Shown one piece after another: positions 952-22,657 of a stretch of 24,427 nucleotides of DNA. Source of the DNA: a virus; IMG/VR virus record IMGVR_UViG_3300021959_000375, positions 1-24,427 of that record; one strand, given 5' to 3'. Made by a program: the position numbers and the translations under genes. A model generated the notes under the pieces. It had not been told where the DNA came from. It saw only the letters and a program-made list of their open reading frames with translations, and searched no databases. Positions within the stretch are counted from its first letter, which is position 1, and every line of letters begins with the position of its first letter.

Positions 952-3081
952 TTAACCTTTTGCGAGGTAAAGAATTCTTTCAAGCATTGGATCACGTTCT
1001 GCTTTGAGTGCTTCTTTGCCAGTGTCGATATCTTGTATTTCTGTCGTCACATGCTTCTTTTCAACAACCTGTCCACTAAGCCTACGCATATCTGACATTT
1101 GAGCATCTTCTATTATACCACCTAATGCTTTGATTCCTTTTTCGGCGAATTGTATAACCTCAGCTGGTTCTGCGTCGACTAAATCTCTGGCCATTTTATA
1201 CACGTCTAATGTTACATCGTCGGCATTTGCATGCATGTCCTTAAAGTAGTCGCCCATTTCATCTAAGATATGATCATTGTCGGTAAAGTCATTTGTAGAC
1301 GCTTGGTCGTATAAGTGATTAAGGTCGCTAATCAATTCTCTTTTAAGTTCATCTGCACTCATGTAGTCGGTATCGTCTTCAGTCATGTCTTCGGAATCCA
1401 AATCGTCCTGGGCCATCATGTCAACTGGTTTTTCGTTGTCAGTTCCATCTTGGTCGTTTGGATTGACAAAACTGTCCATGCCCTCATATTGAGGTGCAAC
1501 TCTATCCATATAGTCAATCCGTACCCATTCAGCCAGATCATATTCTTCATGTAGTGCATCATAGTCTTCTTCAGCAACTGGTGTACCGTCGGTATACTTT
1601 ATGCCATCTTCAAGAACAAAAATTAAATCATCAAAGTCCTGCATATCATATTCGATAGTGTCTTGGTCTATTTCTTTGCCTTTGAAAATAATTTTATCGC
1701 TGTAGCCTTCTTCAATGTCTGAACCACCAGCAGTTTTCACTACATCTTGTCCGCCCATGCCCATTTCTAAACTGCGTTGCTTGCCTGCGGCTGCATTGGC
1801 CTGTCCTTGTTCATATCCACTTGCTGGTTCTTCTTGTGTAGGTGATTCACTTACGTTAACATCTATGTCAACACCAAGTTCCTGAGCACGTGCCTTTACT
1901 AATTCTCTACAATCTGCATCTGGATCTTTGTCTGCTAGTTCACCAATGTCATCAAACAAACTGTCATCGCCAATCAAGTCATAAAGTTGTTCTGAAGCAT
2001 ACTCGCCATCAGGTCCACATGGTAGAGGCTTTGACATAAGCTCTTGTAGCCTTGCCATGTCTTCTGCAGTTTCTGGCAATGCCCATGTACCTTCCATTAT
2101 TTGGTCGGTCCAGTTTTCAAATTGGTTTGCTTCTTTCATTGTGCTTTCCTTTATTTTTGCTAGTATAGGCAATGCTTCTTCGATACGGCTATCAACTGCA
2201 CTGTTTACAAATACTTCTCTTACACTTTCGATTGTTTCGTCTAATTCTGTTGCTACTGCTGGATCATATGTGGCAAATATTTCTTTGTATCCACGTTTGC
2301 CAATCATCTTCTTGGCTTTGCGTTTTAGATCTGCATAATGCTTTACTGCATCTTCTACTATGCCCAATGCTTGTTCGTTTTGTGCAAATGCATTACTGCG
2401 ACTTGCTCTTACAAACTTTCCTAGTGTTTTTATTTCATTTATGGTTTCGCTAATGTACTGTCCAAATGCATCATATGGTGTACCGCCTTCGCTTACGTGA
2501 CGTGCCATTGCTTTAGCACCAGCAATACTTTCAAAAGGCATGCGAAATCTTTCACCTTGTGCATTTTCAACAAATAGTGCCGCAATGTTTCTGAAGCGTT
2601 GCTCACCTTCACCAATAGCTCGTGAATGTTGTATCACTACTTTTGCTTTGCCTGGCTGGTTGCTATAGCTCTTGCTTTTACCTTGAGCTTTCCATGCTTC
2701 CATAATAAGGCTTTCGCTTATGTCTGCCATGCTGGCCATTTGATACTTCAGTTTGTTCATGTTGTTCAAACTGAATGTAAGCAGGTTGCGTTTTGCAGTT
2801 TGTCTAAGCATTGCAAGAAAATCATACCAGTCACCTTTATCGCCAGGATCCATACCTTTGCCTAAGTTGTCACCATAGTAGACTTCTAAGTCATTGTCTC
2901 CATTTATTAATACTACAACTGTTCCGTATTCATTTCCGTTAACAGAAAAATTGAAACTAAACAAATCCGCTTCTCTCGGATTTACTGTAGGTTTACCCAT
3001 TGAATCCAAGCTCTTAGGATCTAAGTCTCTAGTAACTAACAAATCATAAATTTGTTGTGATGCTGTGTTTTCTTGTGCCAT
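952..3081 (-). CDS. 709-residue acidic protein of unknown function, marine T4-like type
   Basis: A large protein of a kind I recall as common but uncharacterised in marine T4-like phages. The N-terminal 100 residues (QQIYDLLVTRDLD, FSFNF, YGTVVVLINGDNDLEVYYGDN) look like a compact alpha/beta domain. The middle, to about residue 330, is helical and basic to mixed (ARHVSEGGTPYDAFGQYI, DSRIEEALPILAKI). The C-terminal half is strongly acidic and low in complexity (many D/E, a DDTDYMSADELK segment) with probable coiled coil near the end. No catalytic motif, signal peptide or membrane helix is evident. It lies directly behind gp17, and its late-like octamer overlaps the gp17 stop, which suggests a virion or assembly role; that is inference from context. 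No Shine-Dalgarno precedes its ATG; the AATAAATA octamer sits exactly 5 bases before the ATG. Confidence 0.85.
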   Translation of the reverse strand: MAQENTASQQIYDLLVTRDLDPKSLDSMGKPTVNPREADLFSFNFSVNGNEYGTVVVLINGDNDLEVYYGDNLGKGMDPGDKGDWYDFLAMLRQTAKRNLLTFSLNNMNKLKYQMASMADISESLIMEAWKAQGKSKSYSNQPGKAKVVIQHSRAIGEGEQRFRNIAALFVENAQGERFRMPFESIAGAKAMARHVSEGGTPYDAFGQYISETINEIKTLGKFVRASRSNAFAQNEQALGIVEDAVKHYADLKRKAKKMIGKRGYKEIFATYDPAVATELDETIESVREVFVNSAVDSRIEEALPILAKIKESTMKEANQFENWTDQIMEGTWALPETAEDMARLQELMSKPLPCGPDGEYASEQLYDLIGDDSLFDDIGELADKDPDADCRELVKARAQELGVDIDVNVSESPTQEEPASGYEQGQANAAAGKQRSLEMGMGGQDVVKTAGGSDIEEGYSDKIIFKGKEIDQDTIEYDMQDFDDLIFVLEDGIKYTDGTPVAEEDYDALHEEYDLAEWVRIDYMDRVAPQYEGMDSFVNPNDQDGTDNEKPVDMMAQDDLDSEDMTEDDTDYMSADELKRELISDLNHLYDQASTNDFTDNDHILDEMGDYFKDMHANADDVTLDVYKMARDLVDAEPAEVIQFAEKGIKALGGIIEDAQMSDMRRLSGQVVEKKHVTTEIQDIDTGKEALKAERDPMLERILYLAKG

Positions 3082-3086
3082 GTACG

Positions 3087-3094
3087 TATTTATT
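3087..3094 (-). promoter_or_regulatory. Late-like promoter octamer, 709-aa gene (leaderless geometry)
   Basis: AATAAATA on the minus strand, one mismatch from the T4 late octamer TATAAATA, is followed by 5 bases (CGTAC) and the ATG. In T4 the octamer covers about -13 to -6, so +1 would be the A of the ATG. Confidence 0.6.
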
Positions 3095-4670
3095 AAAACA
3101 TTGCCACAAACGGCATAGGTTCTAATGTTTCCTCGCTAAAATCTGTAAGGTGTGAATCAAGTTCTTTGTGATAACTTGTAAGAACCTGGAGCATACGAAT
3201 CGCCAGAAGCGTACTCATCACTAAATCATCAGTCTCGCCAGGCTTGCCAGCATAACTTGTACCGTGAGCAACAAAGTTCTTCAATTCTCCAATCAAACTA
3301 GGAGAGCTTATTGTCATCTTGTTTGTTTCAACCAGTGTTTTTAACTTGGCACAGGCTGCAATTTTACTTTTGTTTGTGGTATTAAAACCTTTACGATATC
3401 TTCTTCCGCTTGCACTTACTACACTGCTGTCGCTGAGAAAGTATCCTTCAATGTTTTGTTCTCCGTACTGTTCGATGCACAACAAAGCGGCCTCGCCTAT
3501 TGTATTGTTTTCAACACTATAATAAACGCTTTGTGGCTCTTGCACAGTAGAATTTATTTCTTTGACTATTTCAACCATAATTCTAATTTGTTCTGTGATT
3601 GGCGTTCTGTTGTGTCTCCATTCTGCAACTTGTGTAGTTGAGTTTGCTTCGTAAACTTGTATAGCACTAGGGTCTCCGCCTGTACCAAGACTAGGATCTA
3701 GTGCAACTACATATATTTTACCTTTCTGCGGACGTTTATACCAACGTACCTGTCCAGTTTTGTATAATGGTTCAAGTAAACCTTCCAGATCAATTAATTT
3801 TGTCGGAGATATAAGTGTTTCGTCTGATATAATAAATTCACAGTCCATCTCTCGTCGAAAACGTTCAATCCCAAGTATGTTACGTTGTTCAGTTGCCCAA
3901 TCTTCGTCTCTGTCAGGATGCTCTCGCCAGTATGCTCTATATGCCTTAAAACCATTGATGCCAAGTTCTTTAGTATTTCCAAATTCGTCTTCAGTTTTAT
4001 TAGCACCTTTCCATATAAATGCAAATTGATCCTCATCACTGTTTGGAGTACTGGTAATAATCGCACCACCACCTGTTGACAATGTAGGCGATATACTAGT
4101 CCAAAATTCTCTGGCGATAGTTGGTCTTACAAATGCAAACTCATCGCAATATAACAAGGTTATACTCATACCTCGTCCTGTGTTTTCAGTTGTGGTTTGT
4201 GCTACTATTCTACTTCCATTATCAAATTCTATTGAGCCCTTGTTATAACTGGTTACACCTGCACGTATATGATCAGGACATGCTTCATAGCTGTATCTTA
4301 CACGTTGCATGATTTCTTGGGCACCTGCATATTTGTGTGCCGCAACCAATATTGTACTATCAGGTTTGAACATTGCATACCATAAGAGATATCCAGCCGC
4401 ACTTGTGCTTTTACCAGTTTGTCTAGGCATCATTGATATGCTGAATCTATAGTTGTGATATGTGCTTATTAAACGTTCTTGAAACTCCCAGGGATCGTAC
4501 TGCAACTTTCCTTGTACAGGATGTTGAATAAAGAAAAAGTTACGCATAAAGTACTCTGGGCCAGTTTCTGGATCAGCACAACGCATAAACTCGTCTAGTT
4601 GTTGTTCAGTGAATTCTTGTTTTTTATAAGGAGTTTTTACTAATACCCCATCTTCTTGTCTTGCTACCAT
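3093..4670 (-). CDS. 17: Terminase large subunit gp17
   Basis: ATP-driven DNA-packaging motor and headful nuclease that docks on the portal vertex. The 525-residue length is slightly shorter than T4 gp17 (about 610). The N-terminal ATPase has Walker A PRQTGKST (residues 82-89) and Walker B LLYCDE with Asp176 and catalytic Glu177, followed by the ITSTPN coupling motif (205-210). The C-terminal RNase H-like nuclease has Asp325 in ALDPSLGTGGDP, Glu387 in SVENN and Asp481/482 in GETDDLVMS, matching the three acidic positions of T4 gp17. The start at 4670 has no Shine-Dalgarno; a TATAAGTA late-like octamer lies exactly 5 bases upstream, overlapping the stop of the radical SAM gene. Unlike T4, the small subunit gp16 is not adjacent but about 8.5 kb upstream in the direction of transcription. 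Confidence 0.97.
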   Translation of the reverse strand: MVARQEDGVLVKTPYKKQEFTEQQLDEFMRCADPETGPEYFMRNFFFIQHPVQGKLQYDPWEFQERLISTYHNYRFSISMMPRQTGKSTSAAGYLLWYAMFKPDSTILVAAHKYAGAQEIMQRVRYSYEACPDHIRAGVTSYNKGSIEFDNGSRIVAQTTTENTGRGMSITLLYCDEFAFVRPTIAREFWTSISPTLSTGGGAIITSTPNSDEDQFAFIWKGANKTEDEFGNTKELGINGFKAYRAYWREHPDRDEDWATEQRNILGIERFRREMDCEFIISDETLISPTKLIDLEGLLEPLYKTGQVRWYKRPQKGKIYVVALDPSLGTGGDPSAIQVYEANSTTQVAEWRHNRTPITEQIRIMVEIVKEINSTVQEPQSVYYSVENNTIGEAALLCIEQYGEQNIEGYFLSDSSVVSASGRRYRKGFNTTNKSKIAACAKLKTLVETNKMTISSPSLIGELKNFVAHGTSYAGKPGETDDLVMSTLLAIRMLQVLTSYHKELDSHLTDFSEETLEPMPFVAMF

Positions 4671-4675
4671 ACTAG

Positions 4676-4683
4676 TACTTATA
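4676..4683 (-). promoter_or_regulatory. Late-like promoter octamer, gp17 (leaderless geometry)
   Basis: TATAAGTA on the minus strand, one mismatch from TATAAATA, is followed by CTAGT (5 bases) and the gp17 ATG. It overlaps the TAA stop of the radical SAM gene. The same octamer recurs before the radical SAM gene. Confidence 0.6.
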
Positions 4684-5881
4684 GTGCTCGGGCAATCTCA
4701 GGCCACAGTTTTTCAAACTGTCCTTTTTGATCAGGATGCCATTCTGTTTCTAATTTTTCTGTAAATTCAATAAATTCTTTACTGCGTGTAAGATTATCTG
4801 GCGGCAAAAGTTCTTTTATACCATGAGAAGTAGCTTCACCTGTATTACCTTTTATAAGTTGTTGTTCGATTCCAGATAAAAAGTCCAATTCACGATTTGT
4901 AGAAGGTCTGTTTGATCCAACATGTAGTTTTCGGTATCTATGTATTTCGTCAATTGCCAATTGTCTTATTTGGTCGTTGTGTTGACTAGGGTCAAGGTGA
5001 TCGCCCCATACAACCTGCCAAGTAATAGATAAGTTATGTTTAAGTGCATATTCTTTTAGTTCGCAAACTTTTGTGCAGTTGTATATATTATAAACTGCAT
5101 GTATTCCTCCGCCATGTGAAGAGTTTTTTATTTTGTTTGCAACAGTGGTAATATTTTTGTCCATTTGTTTCCAAGAACTACCCCACCTGACGTATTCAAA
5201 TCTTTCTCCGATGTTATCGAAACTCATACTCCAACTGACATTATCTCTTGCAAGTAACTTTTTTGGTACTGGAAATCGATCAAAATCTACAGTGCAATTT
5301 GTTATTAGTGTCACTTGGACGTCTGAAGGCAAGATATCTAAAAGTCTATCATTTTCCTTCATCATTAACGGTTCACCGCCTACCATTGCGACTTCTCTTA
5401 CAAAATCTTTGTGTTTGCTGATATAATCAATTACTTGTTGCTCTTGCTTGTTGATTGTATGACTATTACCTTGTCCGATTATACTTGCCCATTTAGTACT
5501 AAAAACTGAACTACAATAGGTACATGCTAAATTGCAAGTATTATTCCAGCGTACATCAATCAATGCGGGTTTGTGTTCATCAAGACTGGCATTTGCAACA
5601 TCAAAATCTTCGCTTACATTGTTGTGCCAATGTCTTTCGCTTTCGCCTGTAATGTTTTCTCGGCGTATACAACCGTCGCAGTATTTTTCGTGCAATACTC
5701 CGTTACGTATTGACTTTTTTATTTCTTTAAGAGTATCGCTTTGTAAAATTGATTCAATTGATCCATCATCATGCTTTCCTAGCATGTTTGGATTAGCGGC
5801 ACAACAGGTTTTTATTTGTCCTTCAAAATTTAAATGCAGACTACGCCATGGGGCTGCACAATACTTTTTCTCTTGTTCCAT
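4679..5881 (-). CDS. Radical SAM protein with N-terminal SPASM/twitch-like cysteine region
   Basis: A 400-residue member of the radical SAM superfamily, which uses a [4Fe-4S] cluster and S-adenosylmethionine to generate radicals. The cluster motif CxxxCxxC is Cys116, Cys120 and Cys123 (TCNLACTYC). A glycine-rich SAM-binding segment follows (MVGGEPLM). Before the core is a twitch/SPASM-like auxiliary region with Cys8 (YCAAPW), Cys26-Cys27 and Cys68/Cys71 (YCDGC). This order, auxiliary cysteines first and core second, is what I recall for 'twitch domain' radical SAM proteins in marine phages; their substrates are unknown to me. It sits between a 45-residue peptide gene and gp17, with its own late-like octamer 5 bases before the ATG and no Shine-Dalgarno. 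Peptide or tRNA modification is possible; the substrate is not evident from sequence. Confidence 0.9.
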   Translation of the reverse strand: MEQEKKYCAAPWRSLHLNFEGQIKTCCAANPNMLGKHDDGSIESILQSDTLKEIKKSIRNGVLHEKYCDGCIRRENITGESERHWHNNVSEDFDVANASLDEHKPALIDVRWNNTCNLACTYCSSVFSTKWASIIGQGNSHTINKQEQQVIDYISKHKDFVREVAMVGGEPLMMKENDRLLDILPSDVQVTLITNCTVDFDRFPVPKKLLARDNVSWSMSFDNIGERFEYVRWGSSWKQMDKNITTVANKIKNSSHGGGIHAVYNIYNCTKVCELKEYALKHNLSITWQVVWGDHLDPSQHNDQIRQLAIDEIHRYRKLHVGSNRPSTNRELDFLSGIEQQLIKGNTGEATSHGIKELLPPDNLTRSKEFIEFTEKLETEWHPDQKGQFEKLWPEIARAL

Positions 5882-5886
5882 ACCAT

Positions 5887-5894
5887 TACTTATA
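5887..5894 (-). promoter_or_regulatory. Late-like promoter octamer, radical SAM gene (leaderless geometry)
   Basis: TATAAGTA on the minus strand, then ATGGT (5 bases) and the ATG at 5881. The octamer overlaps the stop codon of the 45-residue gene. No Shine-Dalgarno is present. Confidence 0.6.
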
Positions 5895-6485: not shown

Positions 6486-6493
6486 TATTTATT
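6486..6493 (-). promoter_or_regulatory. Late-like promoter octamer, thermonuclease
   Basis: AATAAATA on the minus strand; the predicted start lies 6 bases downstream at an A, leaving a short leader that contains AGGAG before the ATG at 6464. This is the leadered arrangement, unlike the radical SAM gene and gp17. Confidence 0.55.
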
Positions 6494-7643: not shown

Positions 7644-7651
7644 TATTTATG
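7644..7651 (-). promoter_or_regulatory. Late-like promoter octamer, 99-aa and 276-aa genes
   Basis: CATAAATA on the minus strand, followed by CGTTG and then AGGGG. The predicted start is the first A of the ribosome binding site, giving a leader of about 10 bases. Confidence 0.55.
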
Positions 7652-13127: not shown

Positions 13128-13135
13128 TATTTAGC
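13128..13135 (-). promoter_or_regulatory. Late-like promoter octamer, 217-aa gene operon
   Basis: GCTAAATA on the minus strand, two mismatches from TATAAATA, is followed by CTGCA and a leader of about 15 bases with AAGGAAAA. The same octamer variant occurs on the plus strand at 19964-19971. Confidence 0.5.
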
Positions 13136-13640: not shown

Positions 13641-13776
13641 GTGCTTCCTTCAAACATTCTGGACATACGCAATCATGTAACTCTGTGCTAATTGGTACCA
13701 ACGGTTCGATCATACACCAACAGGTGTAGTTTGGATCGCAAGTAAATCTAGTGTTACACAGTTCGCAAGTCTTCAT
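13612..13776 (-). CDS. 54-residue CWC-type cysteine-rich small protein
   Basis: A complete small ORF fills the gap between gp4 and gp16. It has eight cysteines: Cys4, 7, 13, 19, 21, 36, 38 and 41, arranged as CELC, FTC, CWC and CVCPEC. The CWC triplet with flanking CxxC and CxCxxC motifs resembles the bacterial cysteine-rich CWC family (PF14375-like), a probable zinc-binding fold of unknown function. The ATG lies 5 bases after the gp4 stop and the reading frame overlaps the start of gp16 by 29 bases, so it is almost certainly in the same transcript. No membrane segment is present. It could be a small regulator or a packaging accessory; nothing in the sequence settles this. Confidence 0.75.
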   Translation of the reverse strand: MKTCELCNTRFTCDPNYTCWCMIEPLVPISTELHDCVCPECLKEAHDQETRRTI

Positions 13777-13781
13777 TTTAC

Positions 13782-14222
13782 TTATTTTCGTTTTCCACCT
13801 TGACGGAAAATGTCATCCTCTGTAATCACTCTAAATATCAAACCGTTACGCTGACACCATTTCTGTGCGGCTGCCCACTTTGCATAATTTATGGCCACAA
13901 TTGCACGATCTCGATTGCTTGCTTTACTTTCTAGCACGCTTTGTTTTTTTGGTTTTATTTCGATTAGTTCAGTAACAACCTTATTATGTTTGTTTCTGTA
14001 TTGTATTAAAAAGTCAGGAATATATCTTGTTTTTTTTCCAGTCAATGGATTTATATAAGGAATTACTAGACTTTCACTAGACCATGATATAATATGATCG
14101 TTACTATCACAAAAACGCATAAACGCAAGTTCCCATCCACTTCTATACTTGGGCACACCTTTTCCTGCATATTTTTGAGGATTTAGAACTACGTAAGGTC
14201 CTTGTTGGAACTTGTTAGCCAT
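13782..14222 (-). CDS. 4: Head completion nuclease gp4-like protein
   Basis: A 146-residue protein close in length to T4 gp4 (also called gp50/65, about 150), which completes filled heads before tail joining. It has a TnsA-like/PD-(D/E)xK nuclease arrangement: Glu31 in SGWELAF, Asp70 in RYIPDF, and Glu88/Lys90 in IEIKPKK. The surrounding ISWSSESLVIPYINP and WCQRNGLIF segments also fit the gp4 family. An AGGTGA site precedes the ATG at 14222, and the gene starts right after the 129-residue ORF. Whether it has nuclease activity is not known from sequence alone, but the catalytic set looks intact. Confidence 0.85.
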   Translation of the reverse strand: MANKFQQGPYVVLNPQKYAGKGVPKYRSGWELAFMRFCDSNDHIISWSSESLVIPYINPLTGKKTRYIPDFLIQYRNKHNKVVTELIEIKPKKQSVLESKASNRDRAIVAINYAKWAAAQKWCQRNGLIFRVITEDDIFRQGGKRK

Positions 14223-16492: not shown

Positions 16493-16500
16493 TATTTATC
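16493..16500 (-). promoter_or_regulatory. Late-like promoter octamer, gp19
   Basis: GATAAATA on the minus strand just after the gp18 terminator; the predicted start lies about 20 bases before the gp19 ATG with AAGGAG in the leader. Confidence 0.55.
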
Positions 16501-16556: not shown

Positions 16557-19500
16557 TTACGTTACCGCAGCCGAGCTTGCTACGTTACCAGCTGCAATTT
16601 CGCCTGTGTTCTTAATTCTTACAGGTATGAAGATAAATTCAACTGCTTTAACTGGCTCGATAGCAACATCAACATATAATTCGTTGGCGTCTATTCTAGC
16701 TGGTGTGTTGTTAGAAGTATCACAAACTACCAAATAGTCATATATACCACGTTTTGCTACTAAATCAATCATCAAGCTCTCAATTGCATTTTTGATTTCA
16801 TCTCTTGTGGTGGTATCGTTTGGCTCAAAAACAAAGTTCTTACCAATTGTTTCTAGTCTACCTCTGATAAATGCTACAAGTCTTGCAACGTTTATTCTAT
16901 CAAGTGAACTACCAGTAAATGTTGTTTTGTTACCATAGTTAAGTATACCTGATCCAGGAATAAAAGTAATTGGATTTATACTGTTTTCATATAGTGTATC
17001 TCTCAAACCTTGTCTTACCGCAGTTTGAACAAACTCACCTGTTTGAGCATTTACATATCCAATTTGACTTGCATTATCAACAGTACCACGTCGTGTACCT
17101 GCAGGTGCTAACCAAGGAAATGCTACATCGTCTGAACGTATCACAGTTCTCAGTATCATGTGTGTTGCTGGTGCAACAACTGTTTGTCCAGATAAGTCTG
17201 TAGTTTGACAACTTGGATAAAACACACCAAAATATGGATCAGCAGTAGTCAGTCCATCACCATTGGCATTTGTTGCCCAATTAGTGATAGCAGTTCCTGT
17301 GTCTTCTAAACGCATAGGTGTATCACTTAGAACAAATCCAGTATTGTTACGCTCATTGTTTAGTGCTACAAGGTTGTTTGCTAATTCTTCATAGTTTGGA
17401 GCACATAATAGATTAAAGATCTTTTGCTCTTCACGAAGTTCTTGTGTAGCATCAACTGATGATTTCAGTGCAGCAACAACAATTGCCCTCACTGCTTTTC
17501 TGCCTGCATACATAGCACCATCTGCTTGATTACCACTTGCAGTTACCCATGCATCTGTTACTGTTGGTAATGCACCATATGTAGAAAATGGAAAGTCCGA
17601 AGAATTAAAATAATCTACTTGAAAGCTCTTAACATTAAATCCACTACGTCTTGTGTTGTATAACAACATGCCAGTTGGATAAAGTGTAGGATTTGGTTTA
17701 TCAAGATCTACATAGTTACTGGTTAGTAGAGATTCAATTGTTGGAAGATCATCTGTTATAGGATCTGTAGTGCCATTTCCAGCCCAACGTGCATCTGCAA
17801 AAAGCACACCATTTTGTCCAGTTTGATCTGAGTTATCAATTAATACCCATTGATCAACTGAATCAACACTTTGCCATCTATAAATTAAAGGCCAGTTATC
17901 GAGATCAGCCGTTGAAATCCATAAGTCACCATATACCAATGCAGTATCGTCACTTTGTTTTGTTGGAGCAGTTGAACTTATAATTGGACCAGCTGGTGAA
18001 GTTGTACTTAGGTCAAAACCTCTAGCATCGCTAGTAACATTTTGATAGCCTTTCCAAGTTCCACCATCCTGTATCATTATATCTACTGGATTAGTATCAC
18101 TGTAATACCAATATGTTCCATCTGCTGGATCAATGCTTGGTGCAGTTGAACTAGCAGTATATCTTGGTGTAAGTCCAAATCCTAATGGAATCCAGTTACT
18201 TAGGATTACATTATTATCGCTACCTGTTCTAACTTGACCTGTGGTAACCGATGTGCTGATTCCTGCATCTGCAACTGGTGTACCACTTATGTCTTTAAGC
18301 ACAATTACACCACCTTCGGTGTGTTCAATTTGAACTGCACCTGTGGACAACACTCTTGCAGTTGTGTTTGCTACATCAGCGGCAGTAAATGCAGTAACAA
18401 AGTCGGTTGCACTTGTTCCACCTAATGTTGCAGTAACCGCAGTAGTAAGAGTATCACTATTTTTAGCACTTGCTTGAATTGTAAATGTTTCAAGATTGGT
18501 AAATGTCGGAGTTGTTGTTGTTCCAGTAACAAGAGTTGCTCCTGTAGTGTAACGACTAAAAAACTTTGCCTCAAATATATCTTGTTCAGCTCTGTCATAC
18601 TGTGTATATAAAGAACCTGTTACAATATTTGTTCCACCGCCTGCTGGATCTAATGCTTTTAATGCACTCTGATCATTTGCATAAATTGGGTTGTTAATTG
18701 TTGTGAATGAGTCTGTTGCTGCTGCATACTCTTTAATAACATAGTTTGCACCAAGATTCACATTGTTTGTTTTAAACCAAATTGAACCTGTTGGATGAGG
18801 CTCTGTGTCAAAGCTCTGCCATTGCGGGTTGCTGTAGTTTGGTCCAAAATGCACAACTGGTGCATAATAAGGCTTATCACCTCTTGAAGTACTTGTTGCA
18901 ATTCCAACTTCAGTCAACAATGTTGAGTTGTTTCCATCGTCTATCATTGCAATACCATTGCCATCGTCAGTAGAACCATCATTGGCTGCAGTACTGTCTG
19001 CATATATTTCTAATTTGTTATCAGAACTTACAATAGCAGATATACCTGTTATTGAAGCAGTGTTTATGTCACTTGCAAGTGATGTTAATGTTGTTCCTGA
19101 TGCAGTAATAGTTGTATCATTGATTACCATGCTATTACCAGCAGTTATTGTTGGATTAGTAGCAGTACCAATTACTGTTGGCCAGGAATTTTTCCAACTA
19201 TCACTTCCAACAAGCACCCATGAATTAGCAGTAACACTAGCGGCACTATTTCCTGGAGACTTAAAGTACAATGGATTGTTTGAATTTGTTGTGTTTATTG
19301 CATAATCACCGATACTACCAATTGAATCAAGTGGTACACCAGCTGATGTACCGCCGACTAAATCTGCTACATTTGTTATTACAGTTGGCACTTTGTTTGT
19401 AAAAACATTTGTAGTTGACGACCATTCAAAAGCACCATATGCACTTACACCTGTATCAAACCAATATGCACCATCTGCTGGATCGCCAGTAGGTCTTGTT

Positions 19501-19868
19501 GTAGTAGCAGTAAGTTGACTTAGATCAATGTCTGCTCTTTGTACATAAGCTCTGTTGCTGATACCAAGTGCTGAATAAGCAGCCAATAAACCGTATTCGT
19601 TTAGTTCGTAGCCATTTATACTTGTTCCTGCGGCTGTGCTATAAAAGAATGGAGTACCAAATGTTGCTGATAAATCTCTTTGTGATGTAATCAAGTATGG
19701 TTTATTTGCATTTGCTGCGGTTGTTCCTGCAGCTACTCCTACGCCTGCTCCACTTACTTTATTTTGAGCAGTTGCTATCAAAATAAAAGGGACTGAATTC
19801 GTTGCGGCTGGTAGATAGTTACTTTCATCTATTATAGTGACTTCTACGCCTGGTGATGTTAGTGCCAT
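16557..19868 (-). CDS. 18: Contractile tail sheath gp18, with large insertion
   Basis: At 1103 residues this is far longer than T4 gp18 (659). The N-terminal 110 residues (SPGVEVTIIDES, VPFILIATAQN, YGLLAAYSALG, AYVQRAD) and the C-terminal region from about residue 700 to the end (LNRNN-type middle, GKNFVFEPNDTTTRDE, RGIYDYLVVCD, VEFIFIPVRI) are sheath-like. The extra material lies between about residues 120 and 680. It contains recurring Tyr/Trp modules (DPADGAYWFDT near 129, PTGSIWFKT near 359, DPADGTYWYYS near 580, YGDLWISTAD near 646) and a flagellin-hook 'IN'-like segment (DTTITASGTTLTSLASDIN). Such insertions probably project outward as surface domains. A canonical TATAAATA octamer and a GAGGAAG site precede the start. 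Confidence 0.95.
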   Translation of the reverse strand: MALTSPGVEVTIIDESNYLPAATNSVPFILIATAQNKVSGAGVGVAAGTTAANANKPYLITSQRDLSATFGTPFFYSTAAGTSINGYELNEYGLLAAYSALGISNRAYVQRADIDLSQLTATTTRPTGDPADGAYWFDTGVSAYGAFEWSSTTNVFTNKVPTVITNVADLVGGTSAGVPLDSIGSIGDYAINTTNSNNPLYFKSPGNSAASVTANSWVLVGSDSWKNSWPTVIGTATNPTITAGNSMVINDTTITASGTTLTSLASDINTASITGISAIVSSDNKLEIYADSTAANDGSTDDGNGIAMIDDGNNSTLLTEVGIATSTSRGDKPYYAPVVHFGPNYSNPQWQSFDTEPHPTGSIWFKTNNVNLGANYVIKEYAAATDSFTTINNPIYANDQSALKALDPAGGGTNIVTGSLYTQYDRAEQDIFEAKFFSRYTTGATLVTGTTTTPTFTNLETFTIQASAKNSDTLTTAVTATLGGTSATDFVTAFTAADVANTTARVLSTGAVQIEHTEGGVIVLKDISGTPVADAGISTSVTTGQVRTGSDNNVILSNWIPLGFGLTPRYTASSTAPSIDPADGTYWYYSDTNPVDIMIQDGGTWKGYQNVTSDARGFDLSTTSPAGPIISSTAPTKQSDDTALVYGDLWISTADLDNWPLIYRWQSVDSVDQWVLIDNSDQTGQNGVLFADARWAGNGTTDPITDDLPTIESLLTSNYVDLDKPNPTLYPTGMLLYNTRRSGFNVKSFQVDYFNSSDFPFSTYGALPTVTDAWVTASGNQADGAMYAGRKAVRAIVVAALKSSVDATQELREEQKIFNLLCAPNYEELANNLVALNNERNNTGFVLSDTPMRLEDTGTAITNWATNANGDGLTTADPYFGVFYPSCQTTDLSGQTVVAPATHMILRTVIRSDDVAFPWLAPAGTRRGTVDNASQIGYVNAQTGEFVQTAVRQGLRDTLYENSINPITFIPGSGILNYGNKTTFTGSSLDRINVARLVAFIRGRLETIGKNFVFEPNDTTTRDEIKNAIESLMIDLVAKRGIYDYLVVCDTSNNTPARIDANELYVDVAIEPVKAVEFIFIPVRIKNTGEIAAGNVASSAAVT

Positions 19869-19904: not shown

Positions 19905-19912
19905 TATTTATA
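19905..19912 (-). promoter_or_regulatory. Late promoter octamer, gp18 (canonical)
   Basis: TATAAATA on the minus strand is the exact T4 late consensus. The predicted start lies at about 19899, leaving a leader of about 31 bases with GAGGAAG before the ATG at 19868. This identical match supports reading the other octamers as a related late class. Confidence 0.75.
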
Positions 19913-19963: not shown

Positions 19964-19971
19964 GCTAAATA
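19964..19971 (+). promoter_or_regulatory. Late-like promoter octamer, HNH-like gene (leaderless geometry)
   Basis: GCTAAATA on the plus strand, followed by CCCGT (5 bases) and the ATG at 19977. No Shine-Dalgarno is present. It is divergent to the gp18 promoter, about 60 bases away. Confidence 0.5.
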
Positions 19972-19976
19972 CCCGT

Positions 19977-20321
19977 ATGAATAGACCTATTTGTAGTGCT
20001 TGTAACCGTCGATTAGTCGCAGTTAACTATATCAAAGAAAACAAAACGCACTATCGCACAAGATGTGACAGTTGTATTAGACGAAAAAGAAAGGCTCAGC
20101 CAATAACTCCTCGTTGGATGAGAAATGGTTTTAAGAAAAAAACAAATTGCGATAGATGTGGCTTCTATGCAAAAAGCGGAGCACAGATTTTGGTATTTCA
20201 TATGGATGGAGATTTGAATAACTGTGACTTAACAAATCTAAGGAATGTCTGTTTAAACTGTAGTGTTGAGATTACAAAACTAGAACTACCTTGGCGTATT
20301 GGAGATTTGGTCGAGGACTAG
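19977..20321 (+). CDS. HNH-like zinc-ribbon protein (114 aa)
   Basis: This plus-strand gene sits inside a minus-strand cluster. The start at 19977 (MNRPICSACNRR) is chosen because it begins the conserved zinc-binding part and lies 5 bases after a late-like octamer; a start at 19947 is also open. Four CxxC pairs are visible: Cys6/9, Cys30/33, Cys58/61 and Cys92/95, with a central VFHMDGDLNNC segment that fits an HNH-like motif. I recall close relatives in many cyanophage genomes, annotated as hypothetical or HNH endonuclease. Nuclease function is not certain, since the catalytic His pattern is only partly clear. Its last 36 bases overlap the end of the convergent kinase gene. Confidence 0.8.
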   Translation: MNRPICSACNRRLVAVNYIKENKTHYRTRCDSCIRRKRKAQPITPRWMRNGFKKKTNCDRCGFYAKSGAQILVFHMDGDLNNCDLTNLRNVCLNCSVEITKLELPWRIGDLVED

Positions 20322-20909
20322 ACTTTTTAAATCATCTACGGTACTATCATTGTGTAAGATAGTATCAAATCTAGTATTCACATCAATCCATTTGTACTCA
20401 CTTTCGTGTACATCAATACCACTCATTAGATTGCTTGTTTTAGGATTATTATTATCAAAAATAGCTCTGGCAAACCACTCAGGATCTTTGCCTCTTTTTA
20501 CTTGCCAAATTTTGCCGCCAAGTTTGCGTATCATATTTTGCTCGTTACGAAAACGCACATCAGGCACTATATAATCTCCTGGATGGTCTATCAAATATTT
20601 TTTTAAAAGACTTACCCATACGCCATTGTAAAACCCGTCTCGCATACATTCAGTACCAAATTCTTGTAGCACTATACGAGGTGTAATTGTTCTGCCTGTT
20701 TCAGCAGTCCAAAATTCGTCTGCTTGTTCACGCCACTGACGACTTTCTTCGGTATCGCCTTCCAGCATTGCTCTATCCCAGCCAAAGATAGTGGCTACAC
20801 CATCTTTTAGTTTATCAGCAAAACTAATTTTTTTGTATCCTTGCTCTACCAGTATATCAGCAACTGTTCCTTTGCCAGAACCAATTAATCCGCATATTCC
20901 TATTATCAT
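20286..20909 (-). CDS. 1: Deoxynucleoside monophosphate kinase, T4 gp1-like
   Basis: A 207-residue P-loop kinase that phosphorylates dNMPs to supply DNA synthesis. Walker A is GLIGSGKGT (residues 7-15, with Lys13), followed by FADKLK, a feature of T4 gp1-like kinases. Other family marks are QEFGTECMRDGFYNGVW and IVPDVRFRNEQN. T4 gp1 is 241 residues, so this is slightly shorter. The ATG overlaps the stop of the exonuclease gene (ATGA), showing translational coupling in an early cassette. The tail overlaps the convergent HNH-like gene by 36 bases. Host mononucleotide salvage is the likely role. Confidence 0.9.
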   Translation of the reverse strand: MIIGICGLIGSGKGTVADILVEQGYKKISFADKLKDGVATIFGWDRAMLEGDTEESRQWREQADEFWTAETGRTITPRIVLQEFGTECMRDGFYNGVWVSLLKKYLIDHPGDYIVPDVRFRNEQNMIRKLGGKIWQVKRGKDPEWFARAIFDNNNPKTSNLMSGIDVHESEYKWIDVNTRFDTILHNDSTVDDLKSLVLDQISNTPR

Positions 20910-21427
20910 TTAAGTCCAGTAACTTTTAGATGTTTTATTGTTTGTTGTAGCAAATCTATTTGTCTTCTACAATCTTCGAGTGCATGATGACTTGCACGTG
21001 GCTTCGGCAAATCTGGGTACAAACTATATACAGTTCGTGCATCTCTGACATTCCAAAATTGCCACGGTATAGGCAAGCCTAATTGTTTCATTGCGTTTTC
21101 TAGTATAACCATATCAAATGTTGTACCATTTGCCCATGTGAGATTGCAGTGAAAACATATCTTGCTTAGTTCTTCTAATGCCTGTTTTAGTGGTATTCTA
21201 CCTTCTTCTGAGAATGCTTCATTTTGTGCTTCTTGTGGCTGAGTTGCCCACCATTCTACTGTGGCATCATCAACTTCTCTGTCAGGTTGACTGTCAACAT
21301 CAACTCTTGCATAGTAATCTTGTTTATGGTAACCTATACTGAAAGGATCAAAGGTTTGTGCGGCTATTGTAAGAATACAAGCATCTGGACCTGTACCTAC
21401 AGTTTCTATATCAATCATAATATCCAT
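20906..21427 (-). CDS. dexA: DEDDh 3'-5' exonuclease (DexA/DnaQ-like)
   Basis: A 173-residue exonuclease of the DnaQ superfamily, related to T4 DexA. Exo I is MIDIETVG with Asp6 and Glu8; Exo II is NGTTFDMVIL with Asp105; Exo III is HHALEDC with His147 and Asp152, giving the DEDDh set. Known relatives degrade ssDNA or RNA 3'-5'. It is followed by the kinase with an ATGA overlap, suggesting nucleotide recycling. The start at 21427 lies exactly 7 bases after the -10 of a near-perfect promoter; a second ATG at 21418 would also work. There is no Shine-Dalgarno at either start. It lies between late structural genes but carries a host-type promoter. Confidence 0.88.
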   Translation of the reverse strand: MDIMIDIETVGTGPDACILTIAAQTFDPFSIGYHKQDYYARVDVDSQPDREVDDATVEWWATQPQEAQNEAFSEEGRIPLKQALEELSKICFHCNLTWANGTTFDMVILENAMKQLGLPIPWQFWNVRDARTVYSLYPDLPKPRASHHALEDCRRQIDLLQQTIKHLKVTGLK

Positions 21428-21433
21428 ACTATC

Positions 21434-21461
21434 ATTATAACAGTGAATGAAACTATGTCAA
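21434..21461 (-). promoter_or_regulatory. Perfect-hexamer sigma70 promoter, exonuclease-kinase cassette
   Basis: TTGACA (21456-21461), 16-base spacer, TATAAT (21434-21439) on the minus strand: both hexamers match the consensus. With the usual spacing, +1 is the A of the exonuclease ATG, so the message would be leaderless. This is the strongest early promoter seen in the window. Confidence 0.85.
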
Positions 21462-22649: not shown

Positions 22650-22657
22650 TATTTATG
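22650..22657 (-). promoter_or_regulatory. Late-like promoter octamer, neck-like gene
   Basis: CATAAATA on the minus strand, then CTGTC and a leader of about 14 bases with AGGATGG. It overlaps the region just before the stop of the 420-residue gene. Confidence 0.55.

Follow-up and report, generated by a model that had tools for sequence, protein, structure and literature searches.

Late-type promoters at a fixed distance from start codons: candidate leaderless late messages in a clade of T4-like phages

Late transcription in phage T4 is a textbook system, and its late genes have leaders with a Shine-Dalgarno (SD) sequence. The excerpts available of two papers on this system place the T4 late octamer at -13 to -6 (PMC1524935), as a preliminary description of the DNA studied here had assumed, and roughly one turn of the helix upstream of the start (PMC2988020). 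In Bacteria, genes have been identified as leaderless by a -10-like signal some 10-12 bp upstream of the start codon (excerpts of PMC3160421), and the lambda cI mRNA is cited, in passages of two papers, as a leaderless phage message beginning at its AUG (PMC9031893, PMC3160421). Here we examine a 24,427-base virus record, IMGVR_UViG_3300021959_000375 (the whole of it is called the window; 38.8% G+C), from a large T4-like phage in which T4-late-like octamers stand five bases before the ATG of several genes that lack an SD, among them the gene of the gp17 large terminase. Very probably, to judge from spacing and conservation, these T4-type late promoters are positioned to start transcription at the A of the ATG, which would give leaderless late mRNAs for a conserved subset of genes.

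The gp17 of the window has an identical counterpart (100%) in IMGVR_UViG_3300021964_000012 (a record of 328,292 bases, hereafter G001), and 100 bases of the window (about 3001-3100) are matched exactly within that record. The nearest gp17s of known phages, among the best 60 of 2,522 phage records, are those of PA5oct and near-identical phages (53%), Atu_ph07 (52%) and Phosso (49.5%). Our clade set comprises eight fetched related records (G001, G002, G003, G005, G006, G009, G010 and G011); three others (G004, G007 and G008) served for pattern counts only. A further sample of 78 loci (882 kb) came from gp17 and radical SAM searches, so that it is enriched for late genes and its members are mutually related. 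Genes were taken as non-overlapping simple open reading frames (ORFs), with each in-frame ATG of the first 25 codons considered and the distance measured from the hexamer TAARTA. We write Nx for x bases between the end of the octamer (or of a TATAAT box) and the ATG, and count an SD where AAGG, AGGA, GGAG or GAGG occurs in -18 to -4.

Distance of late-type octamers from the start codon

The preliminary description proposed a scan for the octamer-N5-ATG pattern against background, and this pattern stands far above chance in G001 and in all eight clade records. TAARTA-N5-ATG occurs 15 times in G001, 12 in G005, 9 each in G006 and G003, 6 each in G010 and G002, and 5 each in G009 and G011, while the mean at other distances ranges from 0.38 to 1.62 across these records (P from 1e-3 to 2e-10). 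For G001 the mean elsewhere is 1.62, with a Poisson P of 2.4e-10. In the three pattern-count records, WATAARTA-N5-ATG was found 4 (G004), 3 (G007) and 2 (G008) times and the reversed pattern 0 times in each. The reversed hexamer is a poor control and was replaced by permuted hexamers: at distance 5 in G001 these average 0.43 (maximum 3) and 0.25 (maximum 2) against 7 and 8 observed, and the smallest margin is that of G006, with 9 observed against a mean of 1.50 and a maximum of 6. A motif-free scan, which covered every 6-mer at 50 distances in seven related genomes and kept pairs seen at least 10 times, ranks TAAATA at distance 5 sixth and TAAGTA at distance 5 twelfth, the other ten of the top 12 being SD k-mers. 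ATAAAT has a smaller peak of its own at 6, because it lies inside ATAAATA. The TAAGTA variant accounts for 8 of the 15 N5 sites in G001 and 4 of the 12 in G005, and is less frequent in the other records. The peak extends to the 78 further loci, with 86 N5 sites against a background of 1.73; when every site with a 40-base context shared with the eight records or the window is removed, 74 are left against 1.54, with 58 distinct N-termini.

In the pooled distance histogram of seven clade genomes, 78 sites lie at N4-5 where 7.1 are expected from the far background, followed by a shoulder at N6-8 (34 against 10.6) and a broad hump at N15-30 (177 against 56.5). Per distance this amounts to 62 sites at N5, 2.5 at N9-14 and about 11 at N15-30. 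Between the two peaks, leaders of about 4-9 nt, too long for a leaderless message and too short for an SD, are no commoner than background. The two groups also differ in their ribosome binding sites: an SD is present at 132 of the 177 sites at N15-30 and at 1 of the 62 at N5. With 19 sites at N4-5 against 42 at N15-30 in G001, and 78 against 177 in the seven genomes, roughly one in three predicted late promoters near an ATG would be leaderless, background not being subtracted.

Where would transcription start? The base six positions after the octamer end is A in 59% and G in 12% of 132 leadered clade promoters, and A in 58% and G in 12% of those of T4 (n = 24). At N5 this position is the A of the ATG, which puts the predicted +1 on the start codon. 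The base before the ATG is a pyrimidine at 61 of 62 N5 sites, 14 of 16 at N4, 8 of 10 at N6 and 18 of 24 at N7-8, as well as at 70 of the 74 new N5 sites in the further loci. Elsewhere it is a pyrimidine in 95 of 173 leadered genes and, without an octamer, in 294 of 659 SD genes and 543 of 1158 others. Start codons at N5 comprise 62 ATG, 3 GTG and 0 TTG; E. coli leaderless messages favour AUG, according to passages of PMC9031893. The earlier proposal of a +1 on the A of the ATG thus draws support, at the level of sequence, from several lines that are partly independent of each other: the spacing peak, the two-peaked distances, the pyrimidine at -1, the ATG starts and the conservation of the class.

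Genes, conservation and promoter machinery

The partition into predicted leaderless and leadered genes goes by gene and is largely conserved. Orthologues were defined as reciprocal best hits counted in ordered pairs (each pair twice), either in five divergent clade genomes or in the eight records below 80% identity. In the five genomes, the 94 orthologues of N4-5 genes are at N4-5 in 52 cases, at N6-8 in 13, leadered with an SD in 0 and without an ATG candidate in 1. Conversely, the 222 orthologues of leadered genes with an SD are of the same kind in 162 cases, at N6-8 in 3, at N4-5 in 0, without an octamer in 54 and without an ATG candidate in 3. In the eight records, N4-5 is kept in 122 of 199 pairs.

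For gp17, 80 loci yielded 77 with enough upstream sequence and 76 with an ATG, or 53 distinct upstream sequences: 26 have the octamer at N5, 3 at N4, 1 at N36, and 23, including that of G006, have no TAARTA. An SD is found in 0 of the 29 N4-5 forms and 13 of the 24 others (Fisher P 3e-6). In G005 and G009, gp17 borders a divergent region of 38 nt with an octamer at N5 for both ATGs, and three such divergent N4-5/N4-5 pairs, their ATGs separated by just 26 or 38 nt, occur in 11 records. The gp17 start should be M1, with its ATG at N5, since the PA5oct homologue aligns from residue 10; likewise the SPASM match beginning at residue 8 argues that the radical SAM protein starts at M1, also at N5.

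Among 11 records, N4-5 families include the HNH-like gene (7), baseplate wedge gp25 (6), a 71-residue MKLFE protein (6), gp17 (5), radical SAM (5), the 709-residue structural protein (3), a 199-residue protein (3) and others. The 11 records searched for the HNH-like gene, the window's own among them, gave N5 in six and N4 in one, and the 709-residue homologues in G002 and G010 are at N5. The gp25 gene (PF04965) is at N4-5 in six records, HTVC008M included. Three of the 19 N4-5 genes of G001 encode radical SAM proteins (60928-61884, 156483-158372 and 261580-262782). Thirteen radical SAM loci were found in all, and the N5 octamer is present in 10 of the 11 with the start in view, three being identical to that of the window. 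One of the three G001 radical SAM proteins also has a B12-binding match, below Pfam's cut-off.

The sites of the window are collected in Table 1. The three N5 sites without an SD reported at the radical SAM, gp17 and 709-residue genes were all re-found as described, the same geometry on the plus strand before the HNH-like gene was confirmed, and so were all six contrasting genes with a more distant octamer and an SD. The statement that no candidate has both or neither holds for these named genes and fails for a 54-residue ORF with its octamer at N2 and no SD. The window is not enriched in the octamer as such (37 one-mismatch matches, where 46.7 are expected), and the HNH-like protein has no match in Pfam or PHROG.

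Table 1. Promoter elements and genes of the window (all leaderless assignments and +1 positions are predictions)
Feature	Positions	Strand	Remarks
Late-type octamer TATAAGTA, radical SAM gene	5887-5894	-	N5 (5882-5886); no SD; predicted +1 at 5881
Radical SAM/SPASM protein, 400 residues	4679-5881	-	predicted leaderless; PF04055, PF13186, phrog_14086
Late-type octamer TATAAGTA, gp17	4676-4683	-	N5; no SD; predicted +1 at 4670
gp17 large terminase, 525 residues	3093-4670	-	predicted leaderless; PF03237
Late-type octamer AATAAATA, 709-residue gene	3087-3094	-	N5; no SD; predicted +1 at 3081
Virion structural (head/packaging) protein, 709 residues	952-3081	-	predicted leaderless; phrog_13484, E 3e-13
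Late-type octamer GCTAAATA, HNH-like gene	19964-19971	+	N5; no SD; predicted +1 at 19977
HNH-like gene, 114 residues	19977-20321	+	predicted leaderless; HNH is the label of the preliminary description
TTGACA (-35), 173-residue gene	21456-21461	-	TTGACA-N16-TATAAT-N6-ATG (21428-21461)
TATAAT (-10), 173-residue gene	21434-21439	-	N6; predicted +1 at 21427, host-type
173-residue gene, exonuclease-like by eye	20906-21427	-	no SD; predicted leaderless; host-type promoter
Octamer AATAAATA, thermonuclease (contrast)	6486-6493	-	N21; SD present
Octamer CATAAATA, 99-residue gene (contrast)	7644-7651	-	N15; SD present
Octamer GCTAAATA, 217-residue gene (contrast)	13128-13135	-	N20; SD present
Octamer GATAAATA, gp19 (contrast)	16493-16500	-	N25; SD present
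Octamer TATAAATA, gp18 (contrast)	19905-19912	-	N36; SD present
Octamer CATAAATA, 257-residue gene, phrog_211 head-tail adaptor (contrast)	22650-22657	-	N18; SD present
Octamer and start of the 54-residue ORF, ATG at 13776	13774-13786	-	AATAAGTA at N2; no SD

The octamers resemble TATAAATA, with a TAARTA core; A precedes the core at 53-54% of the sites, leadered or N5, and at 83% in T4. No -35 element accompanies them: across 132 leadered and 62 N5 sites, no position from -37 to -30 carries more than 0.13 bits; the N5 sites have as much as 0.25 bits between -44 and -39. A gp55-type late sigma factor (phrog_12791) is encoded in six of the eight clade records, with best E-values from 1e-72 to 1e-62, and was not found in the fragments G009 and G011; T4 gp55 itself gives a weak match.

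The host-type -10 box TATAAT covers -12 to -7, and its distances peak at N6 (18 against 3.46, P 3e-8), with an SD at 0 of the 18 sites. A -35 box within two mismatches precedes 13 of them, against 24% at random places. The shift of the peak from N5 to N6 is what the two promoter geometries predict if both start on the ATG. The window holds one such gene (173 residues, Table 1), a case absent from the preliminary description, and the same TTGACA/TATAAT-N6 arrangement precedes a 173-residue gene in G010. HTVC008M has one TATAAT-N6 site.

Two further observations concern proteins of the window. The tail sheath protein of the window (16557-19868) has 1103 residues, an impression of unusual length, and its Pfam C-terminal sheath domain covers only 987-1085. 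A 146-residue protein among the late genes (13782-14222) carries a TnsA-like endonuclease N-terminal domain (PF08722, E 2e-22).

Comparison phages

None of ten comparison phages, T4 included, shows a significant N5 spike. In T4 the leadered hexamers lie mostly 25-30 bases upstream, with a peak at N28 and one site at N5 (pyrimidine before the ATG 0/1). There are no N5 sites in S-PM2, GAP32 (100 kb), Cr30 or phiM12 (120 kb of 195), four in 240 kb of P-SSM2 (P 0.11, pyrimidine 1/4), two in P-HM2 (P 0.28), three in PA5oct (P 0.34), two in 200 kb of Phosso (P 0.27) and one in 200 kb of Atu_ph07; the pyrimidine is present at all the sites of the last four phages (2/2, 3/3, 2/2 and 1/1). In all six of these phages with N5 sites, T4 and P-SSM2 included, the numbers are very small. 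PBECO4, where only patterns were counted, has 7 matches and 7 in the reversed control. The clade's N4-5 genes have orthologues in the ten phages that are at N4-5 in 0 of 81 cases and leadered in 5.

The pelagimyophages HTVC008M and Mosig do have a TAAATA-N5-ATG spike, with 11 (P 8e-11) and 6 (P 3e-4) sites, and a pyrimidine before the ATG at 10 of 11 and 6 of 6; the related Melnitz, with 3 (P 0.085, pyrimidine 3/3), is a borderline case. In HTVC008M between 6 and 32 kb, all eight N5 sites coincide with annotated coding sequence starts. The divergent DNA end protector and head closure genes of this phage (18916-18943) have 26 nt between their ATGs, that is 5+8+8+5 with two octamers back to back, which leaves no room for a leader. 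The N5 genes of pelagimyophages are mostly other genes than those of the clade (DNA end protector, head closure, tape measure and tail tube cap). Orthologues of the clade's N4-5 genes in three genomes of this type are at N4-5 in 0 of 19 cases, so the two groups mostly use different genes; gp25, common to both by clustering at a looser cut-off, is excepted. As a separate observation, the 6-mer that ranks first in HTVC008M (10) and in Mosig (7) is TATATT immediately upstream of the ATG; counts of TATAAT at distance 0 are raised as well, in HTVC008M (6) and in Melnitz (4).

Two simple correlates of the N5 class were tried and rejected. An alphaproteobacterial host is not a sufficient cause, given that Caulobacter phage Cr30 and Sinorhizobium phage phiM12 (120 of 195 kb) are without N5 sites. 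The carriers of phage-encoded bS21 are G005 (73440-73595), G006 (329660-329806), G009 (29037-29192) and HTVC008M, yet PA5oct, Atu_ph07 and Phosso, all without a spike, encode it too, and it was not found in G001. The G005 bS21 was also compared as a clue to the host: the best 80 of 198 matches are 37-56% identical and spread across many phyla.

Weighing the explanations and relation to known systems

The initiation pathway we favour would run as follows. RNA polymerase with the gp55-type sigma factor would recognise the TATA-like octamer at -13 to -6, melt the DNA just downstream and initiate on a purine after a pyrimidine, namely the A of the start codon; ribosomes would then bind the 5'-terminal AUG of the leaderless message rather than an SD. 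A second set of late genes would use the same octamer 15-30 bases upstream together with an SD, so that one promoter type would serve two modes of initiation. The leaderless set would include gp17 (in many, not all, relatives), the 709-residue structural gene, gp25, the HNH-like gene and radical SAM genes, with the sheath, tube and adaptor genes of the window leadered, and some TATAAT promoters may also start on the ATG at their own spacing, N6. Leaderless late messages for a subset of genes that includes the packaging motor, as suggested at the outset, agree with the N5 spacing and its persistence in eight of eight related records and the further loci, which runs counter to two of the refuting outcomes named there, a chance frequency of the pattern and a spacing that relatives do not share.

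A number of observations weigh against this reading. The sequences themselves show the motif, with its exact spacing, exclusivity and conservation; the transcription start, leaderless translation and any regulatory purpose are what we infer from these patterns. The clade records are related, so their counts are not independent. Sites at N9-14 are at background, not below it (15 against 21.2 expected, P 0.10), and the N5 ATG is the first possible start of its ORF in 44 of 62 cases and not in the other 18. Since an octamer at -13 to -6 fills the SD position, the absence of an SD at N5 is partly forced by geometry. The predicted -1 base of leadered promoters is a pyrimidine in only 52%, which assigns the 98% bias to the N5 genes and not to the promoter type; the bias probably reflects selection for accurate initiation at genes where a misplaced start would lose the start codon. 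Orthologues of N4-5 genes lack the octamer in 28 of 94 cases in the five genomes and 52 of 199 in the eight records, where one N4-5 gene in 199 pairs has a leadered orthologue. Of the 53 gp17 upstream sequences, 24 are not of the N4-5 form, 11 of these also lack an SD, and a pyrimidine still precedes the ATG in 17 of the 24. For the TATAAT class, the -35 rate is similar at N15-35 (55 of 86), N6 alone reaches P < 0.01 in only three of eight records (G001, G005 and G003), the base before the ATG is a pyrimidine in 12 of 18, and the 78 late-region loci hold no TATAAT-N6 site. The gp45 clamp was not found in the eight clade records by phrog_223 and PF02916, a negative that is not informative, as phrog_223 also misses PA5oct, GAP32, PBECO4, Atu_ph07 and Phosso.

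Could leaderless transcripts exist and yet yield little protein, gp17, the 709-residue protein and others being translated mainly by coupling on polycistronic messages? The window lends this some colour, as the gp17 octamer includes the TAA stop of the radical SAM gene and the octamer of the 709-residue gene overlaps the gp17 stop. An upstream stop lies within or just before the octamer-to-ATG stretch at 19 of 62 N5 sites (15 by a stricter count), a further point against our reading. However, 37 of the 62 sites are intergenic, the gp17 N5 is kept behind differing upstream sequences and next to a divergent neighbour in G005 and G009, and coupling leaves the exact spacing, the -1 pyrimidine and the TATAAT-N6 peak unexplained; we consider it unlikely.

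A still smaller chance attaches to the view that TAARTA at -11 to -6 is no promoter but an A/U-rich translation enhancer within leadered mRNAs. A/U-rich stretches before start codons can help initiation without an SD. A Kozak-like start context, reportedly present in Flavobacterium (PMC6847099), would also count in its favour. Yet the same motif lies 15-30 bases before SD genes, with A enriched at the predicted +1, its counts return to the background level across N9-14, the peak of TATAAT, a distinct motif, lies one base farther from the ATG in keeping with promoter geometry, and a gp55-type sigma is encoded. That the pattern merely reflects short intergenic gaps in A+T-rich DNA with TAA stops has next to no probability. 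Two of the three originally reported sites do overlap the stop of the preceding gene, but permuted hexamers are far rarer at distance 5 in G001 (by a smaller margin in G006), the similarly A+T-rich T4, PA5oct and S-PM2 have no peak, and the 74 N5 sites in the further loci contradict it.

Beyond leaderless late initiation itself, the two translation channels might be regulatory: the ribosome population would change during infection, SD-led and leaderless late messages would be translated at differing times or to differing levels, selection would hold each gene in its set, and the arrangement would have arisen separately in the jumbo clade and in pelagimyophages. We regard this extension as doubtful.

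In the passages available, one paper on Melnitz lists 15 predicted late promoters, with the word 'leaderless' turning up in a reference and nowhere else (PMC9004378), and another describes late-promoter prediction by a cyanophage method as unsuccessful in pelagimyophages (PMC7029224), possibly because leaders are absent; these passages do not mention a leaderless N5 arrangement. Nor did we find a published account of leaderless T4-type late messages in the open-licence literature searched, which does not take in most subscription journals. T4 late promoters, leaderless messages and their inference from the promoter-to-start distance (excerpts of PMC3160421) are already known; their combination, T4-type late promoters set for leaderless messages, appears to be new. 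The T4 promoter type appears here to give leaderless messages for some genes, a conserved subset to which the packaging motor and a baseplate protein belong, with orthologues almost never changing between the leaderless and leadered modes. If this is true, these hosts must translate leaderless messages well enough to supply essential virion proteins, and such genomes will be misjudged by gene finders and promoter searches that look for a leader.

With the T4 late promoter (gp55/gp33/gp45), the clade's promoters share an octamer with a TAAATA core, the lack of a -35 element, an A-rich predicted +1 and a gp55-type sigma; however, T4's hexamers lie mostly 25-30 bases upstream, whereas in the clade about a third of the hexamers close to an ATG directly adjoin it. 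The cI gene of lambda is a single regulatory gene with a host-type promoter, in contrast to a whole class of late structural genes here. For bacterial leaderless genes the inference is the same in the excerpts consulted, a fixed short distance from box to start meaning no leader (PMC3160421), but their boxes are of the host sigma70 type, while those of the clade are of a viral late-sigma type with a conserved split between predicted leaderless and leadered genes.

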